33,947 bases of DNA from a virus: positions 1 to 33,947 of IMG/VR virus record IMGVR_UViG_3300020200_000090; one strand, written 5' to 3'. Shown here one piece after another: positions 1,109 through 10,963 of this stretch. Every line of letters begins with the position of its first letter. The first letter of the stretch is position 1. The notes beneath the pieces were generated by a model. The model saw only the letters and a list, made by a program, of their open reading frames with translations, was not told the origin of the DNA and did no database searches. The translations under genes and the position numbers were made by a program.

Positions 1109-1136
1109 AAGACCCATCCATAGGTCTTGTTTTATT
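1107..1136. terminator. Bidirectional intrinsic terminator between convergent genes
   Basis: AAGACC (1109-1114) and GGTCTT (1123-1128) form a 6-bp stem with an 8-base loop. GTTTTATT follows on the plus strand, and the minus strand has a TTTTAA run on its far side. It lies exactly between the 3' ends of two convergent genes. Confidence 0.7.
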
Positions 1137-1653
1137 AACCAAGAAGAGCTTTAAGTTCTTCTGGCAAAAGTGTTACATTAACTTGAGTTTTAGGTTTCTT
1201 CTTTTGTCCTAATTCTTGTTGACGTGTTTCAATTGCCTCGTCTACAGATGCAATTGATTGAGAATCAGCGTTGCGCTCAACAAGGGCCTTACGAAGTAAT
1301 TTTAGTTCTTTTAGTTGAGCATCACTTGCATTTTGTCGCGAACCTGGACTCTTAGCTTGATACGCAGCGCCGGCGTTTAATGCTTTGTCTTTATTGTGCC
1401 AATTACTAACCAGTCCGCTTACATATTTACGAAGCTCTGACTTGTCAGACAGCTTTTTGCGATTTGATTCTGTATCTGAAAAAACAACTTGACCTTTTTG
1501 AAACATAGAAGTTACAACTTCTAAAATCTGAGCTCGATATTCTTTAGTCATAACAGAATGAATATCTGTTTGATTTGCGACAAACTCAATTCCAGCTTCT
1601 TGCAAAACTTGAATTGTTGCATTAAAAACGGCCTCACGTTGAGAAATAGTCAT
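1135..1653 (-). CDS. Three-paralogue family protein, divergent AT-rich copy
   Basis: A 172-residue protein, starting at an ATG preceded by AAGGAG at good spacing. It belongs to the same family as the genes at 7848-8339 and 9094-9588. The shared core is LRKYVSGLVSNWHNKDK, then a Tyr and an (S/N)PGSRQ turn, D-x-QLKELKLL-x-KAL-x-ERNA and a helical tail ending in PEELKALL. Here the start is MTISQREAVF, whereas the others start M-x-MSQS-x-SVV. The N-terminal third is divergent and lacks the GESF(R/K)PG segment of the other two. The core looks like a helical DNA- or protein-binding fold, but I do not recognise an activity. The copy is AT-rich like its surroundings, unlike its GC-richer paralogues, so the duplication is old or the copies came from different sources. 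A 10-bp hairpin and a CCGATTC element lie in its leader. Confidence 0.85.
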   Translation of the reverse strand: MTISQREAVFNATIQVLQEAGIEFVANQTDIHSVMTKEYRAQILEVVTSMFQKGQVVFSDTESNRKKLSDKSELRKYVSGLVSNWHNKDKALNAGAAYQAKSPGSRQNASDAQLKELKLLRKALVERNADSQSIASVDEAIETRQQELGQKKKPKTQVNVTLLPEELKALLG

Positions 1654-1676
1654 AACCTGACTCCTTATAACAAGTA

Positions 1677-1705
1677 TTGAAAAGAGAAACCACTCCTCTT
1701 TTCAA
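1677..1705 (-). promoter_or_regulatory. Leader hairpin upstream of the gene at 1135-1653
   Basis: TTGAAAAGAG (1677-1686) pairs perfectly with CTCTTTTCAA (1696-1705) around a 9-base loop. It lies about 25 bases before the start codon and downstream of the putative promoter element at 1712-1723. Read on the minus strand, the stem and loop contain an AGAGGAG that resembles a ribosome binding site. No T-run follows, so an mRNA stability or control element is more likely than a terminator. Confidence 0.4.
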
Positions 1706-1707
1706 AT

Positions 1708-2112
1708 TCAATTAGAATCGGATATTGTTAGTGAATTGGCATTTGTTGTAAAGTCTGAAAAAGACATTGTACTTCTACCTAGCCAAGCTAAACATTCGAG
1801 CGTTTTTTCATATATTACATTTTTAGGGTTTTTATTTTTAAGCAAACCTGGACTTACGGCAATTCCAATTTTTTCCACATTGGGTTCTGCTGTGTAGATT
1901 GCAGTCCAACAAATCCAACCATAATGATTCTCGTTTGGATCTAATAACTTAGCAACATAGGGTTTTGGCATCTGAGTTGCACAATTTGTTTTTTCGCAAA
2001 GCAATGCAAATTCCTTAAACCCGTCATTCAACTCATCTTGTAATCTGTCTTCTTCGGTTTCGTGTCCGCAGCTAGATATTAAAAACAAAGCAAACAATAA
2101 ACTTTTTTTCAT
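1708..2112 (-). CDS. Phage-encoded lipoprotein, function unknown
   Basis: A 134-residue protein with a lipoprotein signal: MKK, a hydrophobic stretch (SLLFALFLIS) and the lipobox ISSC with the acylated Cys at position 15. The mature part begins with an acidic stretch and carries four further Cys residues (in the CEKTNC segment, at WICW and at LECLAW), which suggests disulphide bonds in the periplasm. The start follows GAGGGTG, 9 bases after the preceding gene's stop codon. Small lipoproteins of phages are often spanin subunits, superinfection-exclusion factors or conversion factors. There is no clear spanin partner, so I leave the function open. The last codons overlap the CCGATTC promoter-like element of the next gene. 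Confidence 0.75.
   Translation of the reverse strand: MKKSLLFALFLISSCGHETEEDRLQDELNDGFKEFALLCEKTNCATQMPKPYVAKLLDPNENHYGWICWTAIYTAEPNVEKIGIAVSPGLLKNKNPKNVIYEKTLECLAWLGRSTMSFSDFTTNANSLTISDSN
1712..1723 (-). promoter_or_regulatory. CCGAT-type promoter element (copy a)
   Basis: Minus-strand ATCCGATTCTAA, ahead of the gene at 1135-1653 and inside the last codons of the preceding lipoprotein gene. It is one of about 13 copies of the repeated element described in findings. Confidence 0.5.
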
Positions 2113-2121
2113 ACAACACCC

Positions 2122-2286
2122 TCAATGAAGAATCTCCGGAATCGACTCTGTCATACTTTCATTTGCAATGATTACATAATCAATGTATTCATCTATCATT
2201 GTTACAAGCATCTCATCTGGAGTTGTTACTATTTTTGTTTTATCTTTTACATTGTTTAAAAGAGCAATGAGTTGTTCAACAGTCAT
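2122..2286 (-). CDS. Small hypothetical protein (54 aa)
   Basis: A 54-codon frame beginning MTVEQLIALLNNVKD and ending TESIPEILH. The start codon follows AGGGGA at about 7 bases, and a CCGATTCTATTAAAAT element lies about 25 bases upstream. The stop is 9 bases before the downstream lipoprotein gene. The sequence is acidic, helical and probably cytoplasmic, with no membrane segment. I do not recognise it. The start signals and its fit in a tightly packed operon support it as a real gene. Confidence 0.65.
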   Translation of the reverse strand: MTVEQLIALLNNVKDKTKIVTTPDEMLVTMIDEYIDYVIIANESMTESIPEILH

Positions 2287-2302
2287 GTATTTCCCCTGAT
2301 TT

Positions 2303-2316
2303 TAATAGAATCGGAA
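2303..2316 (-). promoter_or_regulatory. CCGAT-type promoter element (copy b)
   Basis: Minus-strand TTCCGATTCTATTA followed by AAAT, about 17-30 bases before the ATG at 2286 and just after the stop codon of the preceding lipoprotein gene. One of the clearest intergenic copies. Confidence 0.6.
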
Positions 2317-2317
2317 A

Positions 2318-2584
2318 TCAATGATAAACTCTGCCACAGGTAGCTTTTTTAACAATTAGTGGATTATGACCTGCTTTTTCTAATTCTTTAGCCAGTTTTT
2401 TAACAGCCTCGCATTTGTTTTTTCCGTGCGCAGCAAAATCATCATTATCTATTTTTAACAGACAAAGATGAGGATCCACTACAGTAACGCACAGCTCTGG
2501 TAGTTTTGGTTCTTGTTTTGGTTCTTGTTTTGGAATTGTACTGCATGAACTCAATACAAATGATAACAATAGTATTTTTTTCAT
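2318..2584 (-). CDS. Small lipoprotein, possible outer-membrane spanin-like protein
   Basis: An 88-residue lipoprotein precursor: MKKILLLSFVLSSC with lipobox LSSC and acylation site at Cys14. A KQEPKQEPKLPE linker follows, rich in Pro and Lys, then a small domain with Cys residues at VTVVD-flanking, LCLL, NKCEA and ATCGR positions. Lipid anchor plus Pro-rich linker is the layout of an o-spanin, but o-spanins usually pair with an inner-membrane coiled-coil partner next to endolysin and holin, which is not evident here. Its ATG overlaps the stop of the upstream 28-residue membrane peptide (ATGA), so the two are translationally coupled. The CCGATTC element of the next gene lies right after its stop codon. 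Confidence 0.75.
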   Translation of the reverse strand: MKKILLLSFVLSSCSTIPKQEPKQEPKLPELCVTVVDPHLCLLKIDNDDFAAHGKNKCEAVKKLAKELEKAGHNPLIVKKATCGRVYH

Positions 2585-2667
2585 TTGACACCTTCAAAAT
2601 ATCCACTTATAACTAATATTAAAAAACTAATCATAATAAATACAACTATATAATCAATGTAAATCAT
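2581..2667 (-). CDS. 28-residue membrane peptide coupled to the lipoprotein gene
   Basis: A short frame starting MIYIDYIVVFIMISFL and ending GYFEGVK. It is almost entirely one transmembrane helix with a short polar tail. AGGGGA lies about 10 bases before its ATG. Its stop codon overlaps the ATG of the lipoprotein gene in an ATGA arrangement, which is why I accept such a small frame. Together they may form a membrane/envelope pair. The peptide is too short for a classical i-spanin. Confidence 0.5.
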   Translation of the reverse strand: MIYIDYIVVFIMISFLILVISGYFEGVK

Positions 2668-2967
2668 ATCTACGAAAATCCCCTGTTGATAATATTTTTA
2701 AACCATGGTTGGTGTTTTATGTTTTTGATATTTTTATTAAAAACATAAACAATATGACCATAAAATGAAATTTTATGACTGGGGCAATACCTAAATATAA
2801 CGTAATATACCTTTTTTAGTTATTTTATATTAATTATACAAAAGTTCATCGAGTACGGGGGTGTGTTAATCATCCTTCAGTATTTGATTCAAGTCGTAAA
2901 CATCCACATCCATTCCGTGCTTGATGATTTTTGTGTCATAATCGAAATGCTGCTTTTTATAAAAATA
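2668..2967. other. Intergenic stretch with a coding-like continuation of the upstream small gene
   Basis: There is no complete gene in these 300 bases. Bases 2866-2967 on the minus strand continue the frame of the 44-residue gene past its TAA: YFYKKQHFDYDTKIIKHG is followed by MDVDVYDLNQILKDD and a second TAA. This reads like authentic protein. The rest (2668-2865) is very AT-rich and I see no gene in it. Confidence 0.5.
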
Positions 2968-3102
2968 TTAGAATTCATCTTTAAGTTCTTTACTAATATC
3001 ATTTAATGTTTTTTTAGGTTTTATAAAAAAGTTAATTATTAAATCAGTAATAGTTAAAAACAACACGACTGAAATTGTAATTATTAGTAAATTTAATAAC
3101 AT
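2968..3102 (-). CDS. 44-residue single-pass membrane protein, possibly truncated
   Basis: The protein starts MLLNLLIITISVVLFLTI and continues as one hydrophobic helix to about residue 27. A Lys/Pro-rich turn (KPKK) and a charged helix ending KELKDEF follow. Its ATG overlaps the end of the 74-residue gene (10-base overlap), consistent with translational coupling. N-terminal membrane anchor plus charged cytoplasmic or periplasmic tail could be a small holin, an i-spanin-like protein or an inhibitor. The frame continues for 33 protein-like codons after the TAA, so this may be a shortened form of a 78-residue protein. Confidence 0.55.
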   Translation of the reverse strand: MLLNLLIITISVVLFLTITDLIINFFIKPKKTLNDISKELKDEF

Positions 3103-3317
3103 ATTTCACTACTTTCAATAAACTTATTAAAAATCTCGGGATATCTGCCTACATAACCATTGTCTTCAAAGAAATAATAAAGAGCCTCACCAGGACGAAG
3201 ACCGTCTTCAAAACTATCACGCCAGTGATAATCTTCAAAACTATTGGCATCAAGTCCCACTGCCTCAACGCAGAGACGATTAACTTCTTTCATCCAGATT
3301 TTGAAATTCATCTTCAT
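3093..3317 (-). CDS. Small acidic hypothetical protein (74 aa)
   Basis: Begins MKMNFKIWMKEVNRLC; the start is supported by GGGAGAAG 5 bases upstream. The body is rich in Asp, Glu, Phe, Tyr and Trp (SFEDYHWRDSFEDG) and ends FIESSEICY. This composition is typical of small soluble phage accessory proteins. No motif is recognised. It overlaps the downstream membrane peptide gene. Confidence 0.75.
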   Translation of the reverse strand: MKMNFKIWMKEVNRLCVEAVGLDANSFEDYHWRDSFEDGLRPGEALYYFFEDNGYVGRYPEIFNKFIESSEICY

Positions 3318-3339
3318 TAGCTTCTCCCAAAAGATTTAC

Positions 3340-3423
3340 TTAATCATCACTCTCGGCTTTAGCTTCACCAAAATCGCGTTGTTCTTGGGCTTGATTGGTA
3401 ACCGCGCTTCCGGTATCGAGTTT
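3340..3423 (-). pseudogene. In-frame 27-codon continuation after the stop of the coiled-coil gene
   Basis: This stretch lies in the same frame as the 61-residue gene, directly after its TAA, and ends in its own TAA. The amino-acid composition (Gly, Ala, Thr, Gln, Glu, Asp) is protein-like. No start codon or ribosome site of its own is visible. I call it the stranded 3' end of the upstream gene. Confidence 0.4.
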
Positions 3424-3609
3424 TTAAGAATTTCTTTTTTGATTCACTTCTTGCAGCTGCGCAAGAAGACCATTGATTCTTTGAATGCTTTGCTTAATTT
3501 TCTCATGTCTTTCTTCAAGAGTGATTTCTCGTTTCTCGTTTTGAGGTTGCTTTTGCTGCACTTGTTGTTTGTTTCGAAAGCTGTTGATATCGATGACGTT
3601 GTCATTCAT
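3424..3609 (-). CDS. Small coiled-coil protein (61 aa), possibly truncated by an in-frame TAA
   Basis: Begins MNDNVIDINSFRNKQQVQQK after a strong AAAGGAGAT site. A Gln/Lys-rich linker leads into an amphipathic helix (EERHEKIKQSIQRINGLL) likely to form a coiled coil, ending NQKRNS. After the TAA at 3424-3426 the same frame stays open for 27 codons, to TAA at 3340-3342. It reads KLDTGSAVTNQAQEQ, then RDFGEAKAESDD, with balanced composition. There is no start codon of its own, so a nonsense change, a sequencing error or readthrough is possible. Function unknown. Confidence 0.7.
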   Translation of the reverse strand: MNDNVIDINSFRNKQQVQQKQPQNEKREITLEERHEKIKQSIQRINGLLAQLQEVNQKRNS

Positions 3610-3620
3610 AACGATCTCCT

Positions 3621-3956
3621 TTAGGGTTTGAGAGCATCGAACAAAACCTTAGCATACGGAGACATTTCTTCTTTTTCATATGAAGCCTCATAGGCTTTGT
3701 AAAACTCTTTATCTAAAGCTTCTTTCTCGTCTTCATCTTCATCGTGATAAGTTCCGTCTTGATGTTCAAAGATGCGGAAATCTCCTATTTCATAATCAAG
3801 CCATTCATTAAATCCTTGATTATATGCAACTTTATCTAATTCTTTTAAGGCATATGAGGTAGAGAAAGAATAAGTTGCCACCTTTACTTGCTCGGGATAC
3901 ACTTCATCAAGAAATTCGTCATACATCTTTTCAAGATCTTGCATATCTAGTTCCAT
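3621..3956 (-). CDS. Acidic hypothetical protein (111 aa)
   Basis: Starts MELDMQDLEKMYDEFLDEV after a strong GAGGAGG site. A CCGATTC element sits about 30 bases upstream. It is strongly acidic and aromatic (FRIFEHQDGTYHDEDEDEKE) and ends VLFDALKP, with no signal peptide or membrane segment. Such proteins can be DNA mimics or inhibitors of host factors, but nothing here shows that specifically. The downstream coiled-coil gene follows after 11 bases with its own ribosome site, so the two are probably co-transcribed. Confidence 0.8.
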   Translation of the reverse strand: MELDMQDLEKMYDEFLDEVYPEQVKVATYSFSTSYALKELDKVAYNQGFNEWLDYEIGDFRIFEHQDGTYHDEDEDEKEALDKEFYKAYEASYEKEEMSPYAKVLFDALKP

Positions 3957-3977
3957 GTTGTCCTCCTCTTTGTAATA

Positions 3978-3991
3978 AATAAGAATCGGAT
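3978..3991 (-). promoter_or_regulatory. CCGAT-type promoter element (copy c)
   Basis: Minus-strand ATCCGATTCTTATT, about 22-35 bases before the ATG at 3956, in the short gap after the stop at 4001. Confidence 0.55.
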
Positions 3992-4000
3992 TTAACCATT

Positions 4001-4246
4001 TTAGTCTTCAATAAAACCAATATATACATCTATTTGATATCCGTATGCCCAGCATTGATTATCTAGAGTAAAGATAGCATCTTTTTTATCAACAATAGAA
4101 ATAGTATCAACAGGTTGACGTTGACCATGTCTCAAACCTAACCCTATGTTTTTTTCAATAGATACTATTTTTGCCTTTTCTGGCGGCAAGCTTCCCCAAC
4201 AACCGCTCCACAGTACGTCATCTCCAATGCTTAAAAAAGCTGTCAT
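4001..4246 (-). CDS. Small conserved-type phage protein (81 aa)
   Basis: Starts MTAFLSIGDDVLWSGCWG after AAGAGG at 6 bases. The order of short strands (GDDVLWSG, PPEKAKIVSIE, VDTISIVDKKDAIFTLDNQCWAYG) resembles small beta-barrel phage proteins that begin with a 'GD-VLWSG-WG' turn and end with 'D-HWAYG-QI'. I recognise that pattern but know no function for it. The gene fits the minus-strand operon, with the promoter element of the next gene right behind its stop codon. Confidence 0.8.
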   Translation of the reverse strand: MTAFLSIGDDVLWSGCWGSLPPEKAKIVSIEKNIGLGLRHGQRQPVDTISIVDKKDAIFTLDNQCWAYGYQIDVYIGFIED

Positions 4247-4295
4247 AACAACCTCTTATTTGTCATACGACAATCTTTACAAATCGACATCAATA

Positions 4296-4337
4296 ATGTC
4301 ACAATCCGAATCTGTAGTTTTTCTAAAGGTCGCATAG
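4296..4337 (+). pseudogene. Remnant of the 5' end of the three-paralogue family, inverted
   Basis: The plus strand reads MSQSESVVFLKVA and stops. The first nine residues equal residues 3-11 of the protein encoded at 9094-9588, which reads MVMSQSESVVF. The DNA matches over the first 17 bases exactly (ATGTCACAATCCGAATC) and at most of the next ten. The orientation is opposite to the intact paralogues. There is no ribosome site and nothing homologous afterwards, so this is a fragment left by recombination rather than a gene. A chance match is possible, because part of it also resembles the CCGAATC promoter element. Confidence 0.4.
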
Positions 4338-4368
4338 TCCATTTAAGAATCCCTTATTGCTGATTTGT

Positions 4369-4578
4369 TTACTCAGTGCGAGTTCTTTTGGTCAAGGCAT
4401 ATTTCTTTTTCATCCTACATATTCCTGTCCAAGACATATCGTTCTGAATACATAACTTATAAAGAACATAGTGTAAGTCGTTTAAAGCTTTAAATTTTTT
4501 CTCTATCTTTAAATCGCATACTCGTATGTCTCTCATGCAATTCTCGCTCTGTGTAGCAGTGTCAGCGGTCATGACCAC
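4369..4578 (-). CDS. Small basic hypothetical protein (up to 69 aa)
   Basis: The frame runs from a GTG at 4578 or an ATG at 4572. An internal ATG at 4536 begins MRDIRVCDLKIEKKFKALND, with a GAGCGAG about 8 bases upstream. The body is helical and the C-terminus very basic (RMKKKYALTKRTRTE). No start has a strong ribosome site, so the 5' end is uncertain. The open frame and composition look protein-like, but I would not rely on it. Confidence 0.4.
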   Translation of the reverse strand: MVMTADTATQSENCMRDIRVCDLKIEKKFKALNDLHYVLYKLCIQNDMSWTGICRMKKKYALTKRTRTE

Positions 4579-4656
4579 TTAATATTAGTGATTTACTTCT
4601 TAAGTAAAGAATATTTTATTTTAAGAAACACTAATAAGATACTAAACCTTGTTATG

Positions 4657-4824
4657 CTAATGAAAGAAGTCTCTTTTAGAGATGGGTTCCAAGCTAATAG
4701 ATTGTCTATCTGCCGTTGTTGGTGGTGTGTTTTTTGCAAATCTACCCCAGGCATTTTTTCCTGCAAGTCCGCGATTCGAAGATTTCTTCTTCTTCTCAAA
4801 TCGTCGTGCATCATTGCTATACAA
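4657..4824 (-). pseudogene. Protein-like frame without a good start (up to 55 aa)
   Basis: Directly downstream of the 165-residue gene and shifted +1 relative to it, this frame reads YSNDARRFEKKKKSSNRG, then a Gly/Ala/Thr/Pro-rich part (GRFAKNTPPTTADRQS) and ends KRDFFH. It looks more like real protein than the other frames here but lacks an ATG and a ribosome site; a TTG at 4824 is the only nearby option. A competing frame on the same strand (4593-4814, starting MMHDDLRRRRN) has an ATG but odd composition. Either a frameshifted gene end or a small gene with an unusual start. Confidence 0.3.
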
Positions 4825-5314
4825 TCCTGTAAGTATCAAATTGACTAAAATATGGATAAACAAGCTCATATCCAAGTTGATTAACTATATCTTCGACAAC
4901 TGAGACTAGCATATAATAACCATGGCATTGATAGCCCGTTTTTTGATCTATAAACGCTATCTCAATGGTATGTGGAAATACTTCATTCATTGCACTTGTT
5001 CCACTTGACCAAGGGCCTTTAATGTTGCAGGTCGAACCGTCCGTCATTGTTAGATTAAACGTGTGGCCATAGAAACCACTTGAATCATTAAGTCGTTTGT
5101 AATAAAACTGAACAAAGCCAATTTCATTCTTTCCCCAGTATAGATCACCAACATGCTTGCCGTTGTCGCGATCATGGTCTTCTATCTTTTGAAATAAGAT
5201 ATCACTCGGCTCTCTTCCTCTAATATAAAGACGAAGTTTGTTAGTTGAGACCGTATCGATCCAGAATTCATAGCCATTAGAATATAATCTGTTTGGTTTT
5301 GCGACTTGTTCCAT
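4817..5314 (-). CDS. Hypothetical protein (165 aa)
   Basis: Starts MEQVAKPNRLYSNGYEFWID after GAGGTGA. Rich in aromatic and polar residues with alternating strand-like segments (KLRLYIRGREPSD, IGFVQFYYKRLN, GHTFNLTMTDGS), it is probably a compact beta-rich soluble protein. I see no signal peptide, membrane helix or known catalytic motif. Its start overlaps the end of the 73-residue gene by 38 bases, so the two are probably translated in a coupled way. Confidence 0.8.
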   Translation of the reverse strand: MEQVAKPNRLYSNGYEFWIDTVSTNKLRLYIRGREPSDILFQKIEDHDRDNGKHVGDLYWGKNEIGFVQFYYKRLNDSSGFYGHTFNLTMTDGSTCNIKGPWSSGTSAMNEVFPHTIEIAFIDQKTGYQCHGYYMLVSVVEDIVNQLGYELVYPYFSQFDTYRIV

Positions 5315-5498
5315 GGCTCACCTCGTGAATGGATTTTAGGATTTCATCGAAATAATGATTCTTATTTGTTACTTTTGCTATTCGCAAAATACCTAATAGC
5401 ATTTTAAATCTCTGTTTACTTCTTAAACCTTCAACGGTTACAACTAGTTTGTCAAATTCATCGTACTTATTTTCAGAAACAGATTTGTTAGATTTCAT
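5277..5498 (-). CDS. Small basic helical protein (73 aa)
   Basis: Starts MKSNKSVSENKYDEFDKLVV. Its ATG immediately follows the TAA of the 145-residue gene (TAAATG), a coupling arrangement. It is rich in Lys and helical (SKQRFKMLLGILRIAKV) and ends TSRKTKQIIF. It overlaps the next gene by 38 bases. Function unknown; a small nucleic-acid-binding protein would fit, but that is only inference. Confidence 0.7.
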   Translation of the reverse strand: MKSNKSVSENKYDEFDKLVVTVEGLRSKQRFKMLLGILRIAKVTNKNHYFDEILKSIHEVSHGTSRKTKQIIF

Positions 5499-5936
5499 TT
5501 ATAAAACTTTTTCTTCAATAGTTTCAAACTCAATTAATTGATTTAGATAATTGAGAATATCTTGCTCATCCACACCTGCTATTATTGCGAACTTTATACA
5601 ATTAGAAATATCAGACACATGTCCGCATTTCATTTCAGTAATCAAAAAAAACCTATCTGTTCCCATGTGTGCATCTTGAGCACAACTTGAAATTGCCCCA
5701 GAGGCAAAATAAAACGCATGATTGAGAATATTTGCATCTGCAATTTTACGTGCTAAATTACTTGCTATCTCACATTCTTTTTTTGAAGAAAGACCATTGA
5801 TATAATTATCTATAACTTTAATAACATTAGTTAAATCATCATCAGGGCATATTTTACTTGCCAAAATGGCAGAAAATAAATTAAGTCTATTGATTTGTTT
5901 ATTAGTAAGCTTGCGGCCACAATAGTAAATATTCAT
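5499..5936 (-). CDS. Hypothetical helical protein (145 aa)
   Basis: Starts MNIYYCGRKLTNKQINRLNL after a TTAGGGAGA site. It is mainly alpha-helical with scattered Cys residues (SKICPDDD, KKECEIAS, SSCAQDAHMG, MKCGHVSD, SNCIKF) and ends LIEFETIEEKVL. The Cys/His pattern is irregular and I do not claim metal binding. It is the first gene of a three-gene coupled string (5936 down to 4817). A TTCGAATCTATAGT element lies about 20-36 bases before its ATG, partly inside the last codons of the previous gene. Confidence 0.8.
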   Translation of the reverse strand: MNIYYCGRKLTNKQINRLNLFSAILASKICPDDDLTNVIKVIDNYINGLSSKKECEIASNLARKIADANILNHAFYFASGAISSCAQDAHMGTDRFFLITEMKCGHVSDISNCIKFAIIAGVDEQDILNYLNQLIEFETIEEKVL

Positions 5937-5956
5937 AATAAATCTCCCTAAGATTT

Positions 5957-5972
5957 ACTATAGATTCGAATT
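5957..5972 (-). promoter_or_regulatory. CCGAT-type promoter element, divergent (copy d)
   Basis: Minus-strand AATTCGAATCTATAGT, about 20-36 bases before the ATG at 5936. It keeps the CGA-TCTATA part of the consensus and overlaps the stop codon of the upstream gene. Confidence 0.45.
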
Positions 5973-6362
5973 TAATTGCTTTTCAACAGCGCAACGAAAC
6001 AAGTAATTCATAGCTAACATTTTTATTTGCTCTCGTTCTACTACTCTCGCCCCGTCGAGCGACCAGCTAAATGTAGAATAGGGTTCTGGATAGAATCGGA
6101 TCTGACAATAGCCCGCACTTCTATCTGAGATAAGTTTACCATTGGTTTGTTTAAGAAGACGTTTTAACTTAAATGAATGCTTATTCAAATCATGTCGAAG
6201 TTTGTTGTGCGCTTCGAATTCACGTTTTAATTTGTTAATTATTTCAATAGGTTTTCTATTATCAACTGCATACATAAGTTTATAACGCAATGAGCTACGT
6301 TTGCGAGCCCATTCGTTTCTAGCATTAACTATGAAGCAGATCTCTTCATATACAGAGTTCAT
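5958..6362 (-). CDS. Hypothetical basic coiled-coil protein (134 aa)
   Basis: Starts MNSVYEEICFIVNARNEWAR after an AGAGG site. The first 85 residues are a strongly basic helix (KRSSLRYKLMYAVDNRKP, INKLKREFEAHNKLRHDL) likely to form a coiled coil. A short strand-rich segment (GYCQIRFYPEPYSTFSWS) and a final helix follow. It looks like a small nucleic-acid- or virion-associated protein but matches nothing I recognise. The TATCCGAATCTATTT element lies about 23-37 bases upstream. Confidence 0.75.
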   Translation of the reverse strand: MNSVYEEICFIVNARNEWARKRSSLRYKLMYAVDNRKPIEIINKLKREFEAHNKLRHDLNKHSFKLKRLLKQTNGKLISDRSAGYCQIRFYPEPYSTFSWSLDGARVVEREQIKMLAMNYLFRCAVEKQLNSNL

Positions 6363-6384
6363 AAAACCTCTGACCTACACGTTG

Positions 6385-6399
6385 AAATAGATTCGGATA
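6385..6399 (-). promoter_or_regulatory. CCGAT-type promoter element (copy e)
   Basis: Minus-strand TATCCGAATCTATTT, about 23-37 bases before the ATG at 6362 and just after the stop of the small frame at 6405. Confidence 0.5.
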
Positions 6400-6404
6400 A
6401 TACT

Positions 6405-6545
6405 TTATTTTATAAAATCCTCAACATCTACAAAGGATAGGTTTACTTTACTGTTTTTTATAACTACTAATCTCATCAACACCCAAGTTAGGTGTATTCT
6501 AGTTGTAGTTCTATTGTTCCACTCTATTGGTCTAAAGTAACTCAT
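6405..6545 (-). CDS. Possible small protein (46 aa)
   Basis: The frame begins MSYFRPIEWNNRTTTRIHLT and ends SFVDVEDFIK. Its composition is protein-like and it fills an otherwise empty gap in the minus-strand operon. No good ribosome site precedes the ATG, although a CTTCGAATACATGATT stretch resembling the promoter element lies immediately upstream. Low confidence. Confidence 0.35.
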   Translation of the reverse strand: MSYFRPIEWNNRTTTRIHLTWVLMRLVVIKNSKVNLSFVDVEDFIK

Positions 6546-6583
6546 TTAATCATGTATTCGAAGTTGGGATTGATCAACGTGGT

Positions 6584-6805
6584 TCATAAATCACATACCT
6601 CTTCTAAAGTCATCTCTTCTGTCGTGACTAATTCTAGTTCGTCTATTGCATAGAAGTGAGAATAGCTTTTTGCATGGGCATCTGCTGCCTGGGCGTCAGT
6701 TGCATTTATCAGTCTTTGCATATCTTTTTCCGCCTGAGCGCGAACGGTATAGACCTTATCCACGGCGATTTCGACGTCATTAAATACTATGATATAGACT
6801 TTCAT
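6584..6805 (-). CDS. Small phage protein (73 aa)
   Basis: I place the start at the ATG at 6805 (MKVYIIVFNDVEIAVDKVYT), which follows AAGGAAG, rather than at an upstream TTG/GTG-type start. Strand-helix-strand layout: a first beta strand (KVYIIVFNDVEI), a helix starting RAQAEKDMQRLINATDAQAA, then a second strand (SHFYAIDELELV) and an acidic tail. This is a common shape for small phage accessory proteins that begin 'M-VY-V'. No function known. Its DNA is GC-richer than the genes to its left. Confidence 0.7.
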   Translation of the reverse strand: MKVYIIVFNDVEIAVDKVYTVRAQAEKDMQRLINATDAQAADAHAKSYSHFYAIDELELVTTEEMTLEEVCDL

Positions 6806-6881
6806 CTGTCTTCCTTGAGACGACCTGAGTCCGCGCCGACACTGTTCACACAATGAAGAAAAAAACTATGAAGCATGTTGT

Positions 6882-7085
6882 TCATTCAGAGCTCCAAAAG
6901 AACTTGGAGATGCTCTGCAGCATCCCCATCTTCAAGGCTTCGGCTTTCTCTATCGCTACCAACAAAGCTCTGCTGGCTGCTTTGAGGGAGTCTATGTCCT
7001 TGTAATCAGAGGAACTTAGTAAGTTTTCAGCTTCCCATATCAAGGTTCTAATAGTTTCTATTTCGTCTGAATTGTTAGGTTTCAC
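6882..7085 (-). CDS. Small helical protein (67 aa, GTG start)
   Basis: The start is a GTG at 7085 preceded by AAAGGAGAT at good spacing. The protein reads MKPNNSDEIETIRTLIWEAE, a helical hairpin (DSLKAASRALLVAIEKAEAL) and a short aromatic tail (FFWSSE). Its promoter is not evident: no CCGAT element lies within 100 bases. Function unknown. Confidence 0.65.
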   Translation of the reverse strand: MKPNNSDEIETIRTLIWEAENLLSSSDYKDIDSLKAASRALLVAIEKAEALKMGMLQSISKFFWSSE

Positions 7086-7228
7086 ACCTTATCTCCTTTA
7101 AACTCACCACAAGCGCATCCTCAAAAAAAAACGCGTTTGCAACTCAAAATATGATTACGAATAGACGGTACTCTCCAAAAAACAGTTACACACCAAACCA
7201 AAGAACCACAATTGAAATCAACGGAGTA

Positions 7229-7474
7229 TTAAACGGGGTTGTCTTCTAGCAAGAACTCAATCAATCCATTGAGCTGTCTCTCATTAAGACGGCCAATGAT
7301 TGAAGTCCGATAGTCATCTGCATCATAAGAGCAACCGTAAGTGTATTCGATCACACCCAGTTCCAAAAGCATCTCTAAGCCCTTCTCGCCAGGGAATCTA
7401 GCACTAAACATTCTATCAACCATACGAGCAACAGGAGTAAGCTCACGATCACCAGAGACCATAAGTACTGTCAT
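7229..7474 (-). CDS. Hypothetical protein (81 aa)
   Basis: I choose the ATG at 7474 (MTVLMVSGDRELTPVARMVD) because GGAGGTG sits 4 bases upstream; the TTG 12 bases earlier lies inside that site. The protein is a compact mixed alpha/beta chain with motifs RFPGEKGLEMLLELGVIE and a final helix (NERQLNGLIEFLLED). It follows the 61-residue gene after 12 bases and is surely co-transcribed with it. Function unknown. Confidence 0.7.
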   Translation of the reverse strand: MTVLMVSGDRELTPVARMVDRMFSARFPGEKGLEMLLELGVIEYTYGCSYDADDYRTSIIGRLNERQLNGLIEFLLEDNPV

Positions 7475-7486
7475 ACCCACCTCCAA

Positions 7487-7672
7487 TCATCTACGTAGTT
7501 TAATAATTGGATGACCTTCGTCTGTTACGTCAGATGTAGCGTCTGACAACTCAAGATCTACACAGCCAGCACCAAAGTATTCATCTTGCTCTAGATCAAG
7601 AATGGTTACATGATTGTTTAACTGATTTTCACTTAAAAGACTAAGGGCTTCTAGCAGTTCTTTATAGGTCAT
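7487..7672 (-). CDS. Small hypothetical protein (61 aa)
   Basis: The ATG at 7672 (MTYKELLEALSLLSENQLNN) follows GGAGGTG and is preferred to the open frame extending up to 7795, which crosses the promoter-like element. The sequence HVTILDLEQDEYFGAG, CVDLELSDAT and PIIKLRR suggests a small beta sandwich. The N-terminal 'MTYKELLE-L--L--EQL' pattern is common in small phage proteins of unknown function. A CCATCCGATTCTCTA element lies 21-34 bases upstream. Confidence 0.75.
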   Translation of the reverse strand: MTYKELLEALSLLSENQLNNHVTILDLEQDEYFGAGCVDLELSDATSDVTDEGHPIIKLRR

Positions 7673-7692
7673 AGTGACACCTCCATCTATGG

Positions 7693-7706
7693 ATGTAGAG
7701 AATCGG
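7693..7706 (-). promoter_or_regulatory. CCGAT-type promoter element (copy f)
   Basis: Minus-strand ATCCGATTCTCTAC, 21-34 bases before the ATG at 7672. It supports the shorter start of that gene. Confidence 0.55.
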
Positions 7707-7820
7707 ATGGAACGCTTCGCTGTCCCAGATTGCCCCAGTGAAAATGGGATAAAATGAGTTAAAAGTGGGTGGGTGGTGGCCGCGCACTCTCTCACTCAAC
7801 TTTCCACTTAAATTTTATTA

Positions 7821-7838
7821 GTGCACTTCCATGTGCAC
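7821..7838 (-). terminator. Hairpin downstream of the paralogue gene at 7848
   Basis: GTGCAC-TTCCAT-GTGCAC forms a 6-bp stem with a 6-base loop, 10 bases beyond the stop codon of the minus-strand gene. The following minus-strand bases are AT-rich (TAATAAAATTT) but lack a continuous T-run. Weak terminator at best. Confidence 0.4.
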
Positions 7839-7847
7839 CTATCTCAC

Positions 7848-8339
7848 TCAGAGCAAGTCTCTTAGGTGCTCTGGGATTTTACTAAGATCCACTTCGATTT
7901 TGCTTTGTGGCTTGATCTCGCTGAGACGCTGCGCAATTGCTTCATCGACCTTGGCAACTGCTTCAGGCTGGGCATTGCGCTCGATGAGAGCCTTGCGCAG
8001 TAGCTTTAGCTCTTTCAGCTGTGGATCACTTGAACCCTGGCGAACACCCGGGTTTTTGGGTGCATACTTTGTTCCACCATTGAGCTCGGTCGACTTGCGG
8101 AACCAGTTGTTCACCATACCTACTACGTAGGTACGGACCTTAGATGGTGAGTCGTACTTGATTCGAGCACCTGGACTAAAATCAGTCCCATGCTCGAGGA
8201 TCGACTGGGTCACTAGATCGACCACCTGCTTAGTCTGATCCTTGGTGATGTACTCCAAGACTGGAGTACCGGGTTTGAACGACTCACCGAGAACTTCTTG
8301 AGTAGCTGCAACAACTGACGCTGACTGTGACATAGTCAT
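7848..8339 (-). CDS. Three-paralogue family protein, GC-richer copy 1
   Basis: 163 residues, starting MTMSQSASVVAATQEVLGES after GGAGGTG. Layout: a short Ser-rich start, GESFKPGTPVLEYI, a helical region (KQVVDLVTQSILEHG), then the conserved core VRTYVVGMVNNWFRKS, LNGGTKYAPKNPG and SSDPQLKELKLLRKALIERN, and the C-terminal PEHLRDLL. It is very similar to the protein at 9094-9588 along its whole length and more distantly to that at 1135-1653. Strong ribosome site and own promoter element suggest high expression. I cannot assign a function. Conserved Trp, Tyr and basic residues in the core could mark a nucleic-acid or capsid-binding surface (inference). Confidence 0.85.
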   Translation of the reverse strand: MTMSQSASVVAATQEVLGESFKPGTPVLEYITKDQTKQVVDLVTQSILEHGTDFSPGARIKYDSPSKVRTYVVGMVNNWFRKSTELNGGTKYAPKNPGVRQGSSDPQLKELKLLRKALIERNAQPEAVAKVDEAIAQRLSEIKPQSKIEVDLSKIPEHLRDLL

Positions 8340-8376
8340 AAAACACCTCCAATAGTTGAGCTCAGGCCCAACATAT

Positions 8377-8392
8377 ATATAAAGGATCGGGA
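8377..8392 (-). promoter_or_regulatory. CCGAT-type promoter element, variant (copy g)
   Basis: Minus-strand TCCCGATCCTTTATAT, about 38-53 bases before the ATG at 8339. A 6-bp hairpin (CTGGGA/TCCCAG, 8397-8411) lies just upstream of it. Confidence 0.45.
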
Positions 8393-8437
8393 GAGACTGG
8401 GACCGTCCCAGCGTTCGCAGTGCTTCGGGTGCCGCTA

Positions 8438-8833
8438 CTACCGTTGGCCCGCGAACAATATATTATAGAGTCGGTTGACGGCGTAGCGGTGTCGGAGCTG
8501 TTGGCTCCGACTGGGGGAGCTAGCGAGGACTAAGTCCTCGCTTTCCCCTGGTGTTCTCACTATGCTCTCGGCTCGCCAGCGGACTGGAGAGCCGTCGTGT
8601 GGCTTGTGCCAGTTGGCCGTGTATTCCACGGTCTCGAACTCGTCTTCGAGTTCGACCAAGTTCGAGAGCATTTGGAGATGCTCTGCGAGTTCTGGATCGT
8701 GGTTGCCAACTAGTTCGTCGCTATCTTGGTACCTGAAGGCGCCGCCATCGATGGCGTAGTACTCGGTGTACTCGCTGTCTGTGATGTCAGTGATGAATGC
8801 ATTTACCGCGCCTTCGAGTCTTACATTGTACAT
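8438..8833 (-). CDS. Acidic hypothetical protein (131 aa), GC-rich
   Basis: Starts MYNVRLEGAVNAFITDITDS after GAGGTGA. Strand-rich N-terminal half (EYTEYYAIDGGAFRYQDS, DEFETVEYTANWHKPHDG), an acidic helix, and a C-terminal tail SRSQQLRHRYAVNRLYNILF. The tail is encoded by DNA that forms two strong hairpins (stems at 8491-8498/8504-8511 and 8522-8530/8534-8542). The last approximately 80 coding bases are repeated imperfectly upstream of the gene at 8891-8971. Composition is markedly GC-richer than the tail genes. Function unknown. Confidence 0.75.
   Translation of the reverse strand: MYNVRLEGAVNAFITDITDSEYTEYYAIDGGAFRYQDSDELVGNHDPELAEHLQMLSNLVELEDEFETVEYTANWHKPHDGSPVRWRAESIVRTPGESEDLVLASSPSRSQQLRHRYAVNRLYNILFAGQR
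8458..8540. repeat. Imperfect direct repeat, copy 1 (3' end of gene)
   Basis: About 80 bases matching 8891-8971. The best part is TATTATAGAGTCG-TTGACGGCGTAGC-GTGTCGGAGC with only single differences over about 42 bases, then a diverged middle and a shared AAGTCCT end. This copy is coding for the C-terminus of the 131-residue protein and contains a promoter-like CCGACTCTATAATA. Confidence 0.75.
8461..8474 (-). promoter_or_regulatory. CCGAT-type promoter element inside coding sequence (copy h)
   Basis: Minus-strand CCGACTCTATAATA within the last codons of the 131-residue gene, about 122 bases ahead of the paralogue gene start at 8339. It may be a promoter for that gene, or only the coding version of the repeated segment. 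Confidence 0.35.
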
Positions 8834-8843
8834 AAGTCACCTC

Positions 8844-8893
8844 ATTGTTAATATATAAGCTATATTTAATTATATAGCTTATTATTAACAATA
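8844..8893 (-). promoter_or_regulatory. Long AT-rich hairpin in the leader of the 131-residue gene
   Basis: ATTGTTAATATATAAGCTATAT and its near-perfect inverse at about 8870-8893 form a stem of roughly 21 bp with one bulge and a short AT loop. It lies between the CCGACTCTATAATAT element and the ribosome site. An RNA of this leader would fold strongly right before GAGGTGA, so it may protect the mRNA or limit translation. Confidence 0.6.
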
Positions 8894-8971
8894 TATTATA
8901 GAGTCGATTGACGGCGTAGCAGTGTCGGAGCATTCAGCGCCGACTGATTCTCTCTAGAACGAAGTCCTTTA
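8891..8971. repeat. Imperfect direct repeat, copy 2
   Basis: Matches 8458-8540. It covers the promoter-like element of the 131-residue gene and the 3' end of the 32-residue membrane peptide gene. After that peptide's TGA the frame continues MLRHCYAVNRLYNIL, equivalent to LRHRYAVNRLYNIL in the other copy, so this is a leftover of a duplicated gene end. Confidence 0.7.
8894..8907 (-). promoter_or_regulatory. CCGAT-type promoter element (copy i)
   Basis: Minus-strand TCGACTCTATAATA, upstream of the leader hairpin and the ATG at 8833. Confidence 0.5.
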
Positions 8972-9032
8972 TTACATCGGAGATAGTTAGTAAGATATAT
9001 CCGAACACGAAGATAATAAGTAAACTAGTCAT
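8934..9032 (-). CDS. 32-residue membrane peptide
   Basis: Starts MTSLLIIFVFGYILLTIS after a perfect AGGAGG site 8 bases upstream. One transmembrane helix is followed by a charged tail (DVIKDFVLERISRR). The ribosome site is the best of any small frame here, so I take it as a real gene. Its last codons lie in the repeated segment shared with the 131-residue gene. Role unknown. Phage peptides of this type include holin regulators, membrane-disturbing toxins and superinfection factors. Confidence 0.65.
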   Translation of the reverse strand: MTSLLIIFVFGYILLTISDVIKDFVLERISRR

Positions 9033-9058
9033 GATCGTATCCTCCTAGTTTAGGGAAA

Positions 9059-9082
9059 GGTTGGGCTCAGAAGAGCCCAACC
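9059..9082 (-). terminator. Hairpin terminator after the paralogue gene at 9094
   Basis: GGTTGGGCTC and GAGCCCAACC form a perfect 10-bp stem with an AGAA/TTCT tetraloop, 11 bases past the stop codon. On the minus strand it is followed by TTTCCC, a short T-run. It separates this gene from the membrane peptide gene that follows. Confidence 0.6.
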
Positions 9083-9093
9083 GGAACGGAACC

Positions 9094-9588
9094 TCAGACG
9101 AGGTCCCGGAGGTGATCTGGGATCAGATCCAGATTCACTTCGACCTTCTTGGCTGCGGGTTGGATCTCGGAGATTCGCTGGTCGATCGCTTCCTGCACCT
9201 TGGCCAGAGCATCTGGTGCTGCGTTCCGCTCGGTCAAGGCCTTCATCAGGAGCTTGAGCTCCTTGAGCTGGGGGTCGGTCGAACCTTGGCGAGATCCTGG
9301 GTTCTTGATCTCGTACTTGGTTCCACCGTTCAACTCCTTGCCTTTGCGGAACCAGTTGTTGACCATACCAACCACGTAGCTTCTCAGCTTCTTGGGATCG
9401 GCGAACTTCTCACGAGCCTGAGCGGAGAGATCGGTCTCGAACTCTTGGATCGACTGAGTCACAAGGTCAACAACCGAGGCAGTCTCGTCCTTCGAGATGT
9501 ACTCGAGGATCGGAGCACCTGGACGGAAGGATTCACCGAGAACTTGCTTGGTATAGAACACTACTGATTCGGATTGTGACATAACCAT
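9094..9588 (-). CDS. Three-paralogue family protein, GC-richer copy 2
   Basis: 164 residues, starting MVMSQSESVVFYTKQVLGES after AGGAGGTG, an exceptionally strong ribosome site. Layout is as in the 7848 copy: GESFRPGAPILEYI, a helical segment, the core LRSYVVGMVNNWFRKG with LNGGTKYEIKNPGSRQGS, then DPQLKELKLLMKALTERN and the end PDHLRDLV. Conservation against copy 1 is high at protein level, with many silent base differences, so both are under selection. It sits at the end of a leader crowded with CCGAT-type elements and has its own terminator, which suggests abundant expression as a single unit. Function unknown. Confidence 0.85.
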   Translation of the reverse strand: MVMSQSESVVFYTKQVLGESFRPGAPILEYISKDETASVVDLVTQSIQEFETDLSAQAREKFADPKKLRSYVVGMVNNWFRKGKELNGGTKYEIKNPGSRQGSTDPQLKELKLLMKALTERNAAPDALAKVQEAIDQRISEIQPAAKKVEVNLDLIPDHLRDLV

Positions 9589-9612
9589 ATAACACCTCCT
9601 GGTTGAACAAAC

Positions 9613-9628
9613 AGATAGAGTATCGGAT
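9613..9628 (-). promoter_or_regulatory. CCGAT-type promoter element (copy j)
   Basis: Minus-strand ATCCGATACTCTATCT, 25-40 bases before the ATG at 9588. It is the element nearest to the paralogue gene. Confidence 0.55.
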
Positions 9629-9671
9629 CAAACGCCGTACACTATCGATAACAGAATCGTAAGACAAAGAT

Positions 9672-9686
9672 AGAATAGTATCGGAA
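9672..9686 (-). promoter_or_regulatory. CCGAT-type promoter element (copy k)
   Basis: Minus-strand TTCCGATACTATTCT. A weaker relative, ACGATTCTGTTAT, lies just downstream at about 9648-9660. Confidence 0.5.
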
Positions 9687-9732
9687 TCTCCACATTCACC
9701 TCCAGTTTCGGGTGGGTGCTTTCCATAATACT

Positions 9733-9746
9733 TTATAGAATCGGAT
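9733..9746 (-). promoter_or_regulatory. CCGAT-type promoter element (copy l)
   Basis: Minus-strand ATCCGATTCTATAA followed by AG; the closest copy to the consensus. Confidence 0.6.
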
Positions 9747-9778
9747 ACCCGGTAGCCTTTCCTTTTTAGGGGACCTCT

Positions 9779-9794
9779 TATTATAGTATCGGTA
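9779..9794 (-). promoter_or_regulatory. CCGAT-type promoter element (copy m)
   Basis: Minus-strand TACCGATACTATAATA followed by AGAGG. The rightmost copy of the cluster. Confidence 0.55.
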
Positions 9795-10009
9795 CCGCGG
9801 CGCAAATAATCCCTAGCTGGGGCATTGCAAATACAAGGGCCCGGGCCCTCAATACAGAAACAGGCCCGGTAGCTTGTAGAAAAAAGTCAGGTACCAGTAC
9901 TTGATTTGCACACAATAGTATAGTGTGATTTATAGAGCGTGCATTTTAAAAACACATTGTATATTCATACAATTAATCAGTTTTGCTTATTCTATACTTC
10001 CTGTAACCT

Positions 10010-10069
10010 ACAACTGCCACCACATAGGGTGCATATAGTCGCCACAACTGCCACCATATAGGGTGCACA
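10010..10069. repeat. Tandem direct repeat, 34-base period
   Basis: ACAACTGCCACCACATAGGG-TGCATA at 10010-10035 recurs as ACAACTGCCACCATATAGGG-TGCACA at 10044-10069. The 26-base units differ at two positions and are separated by 8 bases. Spaced near three helical turns, they could be protein-binding sites. Confidence 0.75.
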
Positions 10070-10183
10070 TTCTCCTATTCCCTTGTCAAAGATCCACTCC
10101 TATTATACCCGCCCAGGGCCTGCGCGGACGCCCACTACATCGTTGACATCATTGAAATAAGTGAGAAAGTTATAGTTAAATTA

Positions 10184-10248
10184 CGTCGTTTACTTCGCTG
10201 ATATAAAGCGCGATATCGCGCTAGGATCTTCAGCGAATAGACTCGACG
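10184..10248. repeat. Nested three-tier inverted repeat around a perfect palindrome
   Basis: Centre: AGCGCGATATCGCGCT (10207-10222), a perfect 16-base palindrome. Next tier: TTCGCTGA (10194-10201) with TCAGCGAA (10230-10237). Outer tier: CGTCG (10184-10188) with CGACG (10244-10248). The gaps are nearly symmetrical (5/7 and 5/6 bases). It could fold as a cruciform in DNA or as a long interrupted hairpin in RNA. It is unlike any terminator here, having no T-run. Confidence 0.75.
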
Positions 10249-10426
10249 AGGATAGGTGGTGCTTTAGTTGTAGGTTAGGCGCGGCATCATAGGTGCAGTG
10301 GATTACAGGCGCTGGCATAAGGCATGATTGATAAAAAATATGGGTTGATTTAAAATTAGTGAAAGTTAAGTGTGTGCACTTAAAAAAGCATAGTGTTTTC
10401 ATGGGGTTCTAAAAAAACTTAAAAAA

Positions 10427-10963
10427 TCAAGAAAGAAACAATCTTCGTTCAGCTTCTCTACGACGAGTTAAACCAGCCATAACTTGACCACGGGACTTGT
10501 TGTATTTTAAAAACTCTTCTGCGGCAAGAACAAAGTTACGTTGATTAACGAGCTTAAGAAGAGTCGATTGCTTTAGATTACCAGCACCGACGTTGTAGGT
10601 AAACGAAACTAGAGCGGCAAATTGATTGTCATTGACTTCTACTTTTAGAAGCTTGCTTACTTGATCGCAAAAGCTTTGAAGATGATGGACGAGTGCTTGC
10701 TCAGCTTGCTCCTGTGTCCATACTGTCTTTGGACCAATTGGTGAGTGTTTTCCGTCTACCAGCGGAGAGAATTGATCAAGACCAGTTGCACCGTAGCCAA
10801 TTGTCCAAGGATCACCTGGAAGAGATTTCCAACCTTCTTTTCTGGCGTTTTGTGTTTTTAACAACTCTTTACCTAGAGGAGAGGCAGGATCGGCATATGC
10901 CTTTAACTTACAACCTTCGAAAGATTTTATTAGGTCAACACCATCTTTGTTTATCTTTTTCAT
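10427..10963 (-). CDS. Lysozyme-only product from an internal start (alternative)
   Basis: The ATG at codon 86 (MKKINKDGVDLIKSFEG) is preceded by GGAGAAG at about 6 bases, a better ribosome site than that of the long form. The 178-residue product is close to T4 lysozyme in size (164) and starts right at the family's normal N-terminus, with catalytic residues at 16, 25 and 54. Either the Cys-rich domain and the lysozyme were fused and the old start still works, or both forms are made. Confidence 0.6.
   Translation of the reverse strand: MKKINKDGVDLIKSFEGCKLKAYADPASPLGKELLKTQNARKEGWKSLPGDPWTIGYGATGLDQFSPLVDGKHSPIGPKTVWTQEQAEQALVHHLQSFCDQVSKLLKVEVNDNQFAALVSFTYNVGAGNLKQSTLLKLVNQRNFVLAAEEFLKYNKSRGQVMAGLTRRREAERRLFLS

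Follow-up and report, generated by a model that had tools for sequence, protein, structure and literature searches.

The window analyzed here, a virus record of 33,947 bases, belongs to a contractile-tailed phage (with a tail sheath gene) and includes a block of small minus-strand genes, among them three paralogues (1135-1653, 7848-8339, and 9094-9588). The first two are 44% and 69% identical to the 9094-9588 copy, and both this three-member family and the ribosome site ahead of the third gene, as described in the initial annotation, are real. The paralogue has no match in Pfam, PHROGs, NCBIfam, or PDB sequences, nor in a search of phage records, and a search of bacterial genomes revealed no relative and thus gives no clue to the host. 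The GC content is 0.48 to 0.50 at window positions 8001-10000 versus 0.28 to 0.43 in the remaining window.

The leader ahead of gene 9094-9588 contains four minus-strand copies of CCGAT(A/T)CT, at 9617, 9675, 9735, and 9783. Four stacked promoter-like elements had been annotated at 9613, 9672, 9733, and 9779, all pointing at the paralogue gene; the copies are indeed present and share the orientation of the gene, with the coordinates off by 2 to 4 bases. When the 242-base leader (9589-9830) was shuffled 5,000 times with dinucleotide composition maintained, 4,911 shuffles had no copy, 88 had one, and one had two, so that the observed four exceed them all. A weaker fifth element had also been placed near 9650, and a sequence with two mismatches is present there, but it is indistinguishable from chance and is probably non-functional. 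The coordinates of these and related features are listed in the table.

Table. Features of the leader and of the minus-strand gene block (window coordinates).
Feature	Position	Strand	Remarks
TATAAT inside conserved block GTCCGCGCAGGCCCTNNNCGGGTATAATAGGA	10102-10107	-	Block kept in near relatives
TATACT, ordinary -10-like box	9917-9922	-	Upstream part of leader
Copy A, CCGATACTAT	9783-9792	-	Continues into TATAAT; predicted RNA start near 9774
Clade-conserved block GGCTACCGGGTAT	9745-9757	-	Immediately before copy B
Copy B, CCGATTCTAT	9735-9744	-	Predicted RNA start near 9726
Mini-ORF, VEIPILFYLCLTILLSIVYGV	9628-9693	-	GTG start, 21 aa, hydrophobic; own SD at 9697-9703
Copy C, CCGATACTAT	9675-9684	-	Within mini-ORF, codons Pro-Ile-Leu
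Weak fifth copy, ACGATTCTGT	~9651-9660	-	Two mismatches to CCGATNCTAT; within mini-ORF
Copy D, CCGATACTCT	9617-9626	-	Closest to gene; counterparts in L011, L016, and L017; predicted RNA start near 9608, ~20 nt before ATG at 9588
Ribosome site AGGAGGTG	9593-9600	-	Of paralogue gene 9094-9588
Paralogue gene	9094-9588	-	Behind leader; 164 aa, no known family
Degenerate motif TCGACTCTA (8899) and long hairpin	8846-8907	-	Before gene 8438-8833; hairpin 17 nt later, z -6.4
Motif CCGATCCTT	8382-8390	-	Before paralogue 7848-8339; predicted hairpin from 18 nt on
Motif CCGAATCTA	6388-6396	-	Before gene 5958-6362
Motif CCGATTCTT	3981-3989	-	Before gene 3621-3956
Motif CCGATTCTA	2306-2314	-	Upstream of SD and ATG
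Motif CCGATTCTA	1713-1721	-	Before paralogue 1135-1653; predicted hairpin from 16 nt on

The stacking is conserved as well as real. Both flanks of copy A are kept in six near relatives and its position is recognizable in far relatives; a conserved GGCTANCGGGTAT precedes copy B in near and far relatives alike; and copies A and B are about 50 bp apart in the near and some of the far relatives. Copy number in the same leader varies from two (L036) to seven (L011 and L017), with extra CCGATGCT copies in relatives that are only 20 to 23 bp apart. Counterparts of the mini-ORF (MDAPILFYLYMVALLWIADA and similar) are found in L011, L015, L016, and L017, and these four contigs, which differ by silent changes at this point, all retain PIL or PILF; copy C is best explained as mainly coding sequence. 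Since copy C and the weak copy lie inside this conserved 21-codon frame, only A, B, and D are credible promoters, and the proposal that all four or five copies serve as promoters of one gene is unsupported.

Other sequence features were noted as well. Two 27-nt direct repeats (10010-10070), 93% alike, 34 bp apart, and operator-like in appearance, sit just downstream of the conserved minus-strand TATAAT box, and a perfect 12-nt inverted repeat (TAACCTACAACT and AGTTGTAGGTTA, 10004-10015 and 10266-10277) has 250 nt between its arms. Two related blocks, GCGGGTATAATAGGA and GGCTANCGGGTAT, appear repeatedly in the minus-strand leader 9745-10134 and in L022, L026, L033, L039, and L043, and far relatives keep a near-palindrome resembling AGGGATCCCT directly after copy A. 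A further element, ACACTGCTACGCC, follows the hairpin behind many genes (intergenic regions of L011, L015, L016, and L036, and window positions ~8908-8950) and is found in either orientation in relatives (GTAGCAGTGTC).

The motif is not peculiar to gene 9094-9588 but stands before all three paralogues and other small genes of the block. In its relaxed form, CCGA(A/T)NCT(A/T), it occurs nine times in the sense (minus) orientation and never antisense in 1109-9900, where 0.41 copies are expected and 1,000 shuffles gave at most 4; positions 9901-33947 have none. An 83.6-kb record of the same phage, overlapping the window from 10010 on, has a single CCGATWCTW match, which is intragenic. The paralogue gene is encoded by five contigs, one of which is the same phage, and the set was widened with relatives identified through the tail sheath. 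Thirteen related contigs together have 82 sense copies and one antisense copy, although these counts are not independent because the contigs are related, and a p-value computed from them serves only as rough guidance. In the distant 134.9-kb genome G003, CCGA(A/T)NCTA has 18 minus-strand copies at 88-124 kb and two copies elsewhere. The 153- to 177-kb genomes G013, G014, and G015 contain the motif as well as the paralogue family, with strand counts of 3/12, 0/6, and 9/0, respectively, G013 being less one-sided. Motif and family co-occur in all contigs that reach the gene, with the exception of the far relative L047, in which the motif has diverged. The isolate with the closest sheath, Myxococcus phage Mx1, has the motif only at chance level.

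Alignment of 48 near and 42 far copies shows strong conservation at the motif positions only; with no conserved position upstream, a -35 box is lacking, and T is not conserved at the -7-like position either. In a gapless alignment of seven intergenic leaders from four near-relative contigs, which were chosen after inspection, a hairpin begins 18 nt from the first motif base; seven of its nine pairs have compensating changes, and slid controls fail. When hairpin offsets were scanned more broadly, at 127 loosely defined copies, no offset stood out clearly (9 versus a mean of 7.9, with 6-bp stems), and a consensus fold of the whole leader has little covariation. Within the window, hairpins are predicted to begin 16 to 18 nt after three copies, those at 1713 and 8382 and the degenerate one at 8899. 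An SD with an ATG lies within 130 nt of 75% of copies compared with 25% of random positions, and in 63 of 65 cases the distance from motif to SD start is at least 18 nt. Among 31 near-group copies, positions 9 to 17 are 58 to 94% AT, T occupies position 17 in 68%, and A or G occupies position 18 in 81%. The hairpin start, the SD boundary, and the T-purine step agree, from which we infer that the RNA 5' end lies about 18 nt beyond the first motif base, some 9 bases past the box.

We consider it probable that these motifs are single-box promoters, that the host RNA polymerase reads them with the help of a sigma factor from either phage or host, and that A, B, and D act in tandem. The promoter-like nature proposed in the initial annotation gains support from the strand lock, the mostly intergenic positions upstream of ribosome sites, the start-like signature at a fixed distance, and the clade-wide conservation. 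CCGA(A/T)NCT(A/T) would be the sole recognized box, at about -18 to -10 and with no -35; the AT-rich stretch after it would melt, and RNA would begin at a purine about 18 nt after the first motif base, often directly into a 5' hairpin or ribosome site. Such promoters would punctuate the block of small minus-strand genes, which we assume from its position and its small genes to be expressed early, and A (9783), B (9735), and D (9617) would drive both the mini-ORF and the paralogue gene as tandem promoters.

A candidate reader is present in the same phage, which encodes a 244-aa sigma-like protein weakly matching TIGR02937 (NCBIfam; E value 1.5e-5) and Pfam Sigma70_r2 (E value 0.012), both below the curated cutoffs, and a sigma entry in PHROGs (E value 0.0033). 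Hypothetically, this protein reads the motif together with the host RNA polymerase; alternatively, a host sigma factor might accept it as an extended -10. A second possible sigma-like family (A4), with weak matches only, is not similar to the first. Inspection of large genes turned up no RNA polymerase, and a search of 10 contigs for a T7-like polymerase (PF00940) gave no match, with its control equally silent. Among known promoter types, a canonical sigma-70 promoter (TTGACA-like and TATAAT-like elements 16 to 18 nt apart) was rejected, as a consensus scan of 9400-10450 found no minus-strand site and there is no fixed -35, and a sigma-28 promoter (a TAAA -35 about 15 nt before CCGATAA) was rejected as no upstream position is conserved. 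The same phage also codes for a GroEL homologue, a T5 A1-like DNA transfer protein, and a terminase in which intein/LAGLIDADG matches were found (L103:6171-7898, L103:12486-14090, and L104:4277-7666).

Several observations sit uneasily with promoter function and bear on what else the motif could be. Farther upstream, the same leader contains ordinary -10-like boxes, and related copies in G002 and G007 adjoin the SD (CCGAAACTAGGAGG), such that the SD would fall outside a transcript starting where predicted. Both would suit an RNA-level element, in which long transcripts from the upstream TATAAT or TATACT carry CCGAWNCU as a site of cleavage, stability, or translation control, flanked by a 3' hairpin on one side and by a 5' hairpin or a ribosome site on the other. 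The motif does lie between two hairpins in many intergenic regions, the hairpins seen in the minus-strand block have no U-tract, unlike a terminator-like hairpin seen in the plus-strand block, and the upstream TATAAT box is kept in near relatives. Nonetheless, a transcription start accounts better for the AT-rich stretch, for the T-purine step, and for the fixed boundary at 18 nt; in addition, no Rfam covariance model matches, and we regard an RNA element as unlikely.

The 20- to 23-bp spacing of copies in some relatives is likewise close for separate promoters and would suit binding sites as well as RNA elements. Together with the variable number of copies in the leader, it is compatible with an operator array, whose repeats would bind a phage regulator, perhaps a member of the paralogue family, acting on the ordinary upstream promoters. 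The co-occurrence of motif and family would fit, as would the chance-level motif in Mx1 alongside the empty search of phage records for the paralogue. The motif, however, is non-palindromic and always sense oriented, neither of which an operator needs, its distance to hairpins and SDs is fixed, and the paralogue matches no known DNA-binding family, making this explanation quite improbable. That the copies are coincidental or a by-product of coding is barely credible: copy C and the weak copy do encode conserved mini-ORF codons, but shuffles, strand lock, and conservation contradict this explanation overall, and shuffles together with conservation refute it for A, B, and D.

If the single-box promoter interpretation is correct, then a tentative extension is that these sequences form an undescribed promoter class, with a CCGA(A/T)NCT(A/T) box, often a 5' hairpin, recognition by a phage sigma, service to small and probably early genes, and tandem copies that adjust how much the first gene yields; we hold this to be possible but somewhat doubtful. 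It would supply a grammar from which expression could be read in an uncultured clade of contractile-tailed phages without a known host, would allow many small genes of unknown function to be sorted into transcription units, and would add a one-box promoter type with a directly testable candidate sigma.

Parts of this organization have parallels elsewhere. The sigma-28 -10 box, GCCGATAA, resembles CCGATA, but the TAAA -35 element that goes with it is missing here. The late promoters of T4 (TATAAATA, read with gp55) also have a single box without a -35 element, but differ in sequence and serve late genes. Closer in design are the phiEco32 middle and late promoters, with the box tAATGTAtA and starts 6 to 8 bp downstream, which are read by a sigma factor without region 4, phi32_gp36 (PMC8948821). 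As there, one conserved nine-base box is found with no conserved -35, a start is predicted a few bases downstream, and the presumed early and late blocks are on opposite strands; the box sequence differs, however, the phiEco32 box serves middle and late genes, and the sigma and starts are proved for phiEco32 but inferred here. Phage 7-11 late promoters, GTAAtg-(16)-aCTA, are read by sigma SaPh711_gp47 (PMC8948821), and their downstream box ends in CTA, as CCGAWNCTA does, but they are bipartite with an upstream box, and none was found here. AR9 early promoters, AAATATATATTAT-(6N)-G (PMC5312081), similarly combine a conserved box with a purine start at fixed spacing and are scattered through the early gene set, but AR9 uses a multisubunit virion polymerase, and no polymerase gene was noticed in the present clade. 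Single-box phage promoters are thus already known from phiEco32, and CCGA(A/T)NCT(A/T) is most likely a clade-specific one-box promoter, stacked before the paralogue gene.
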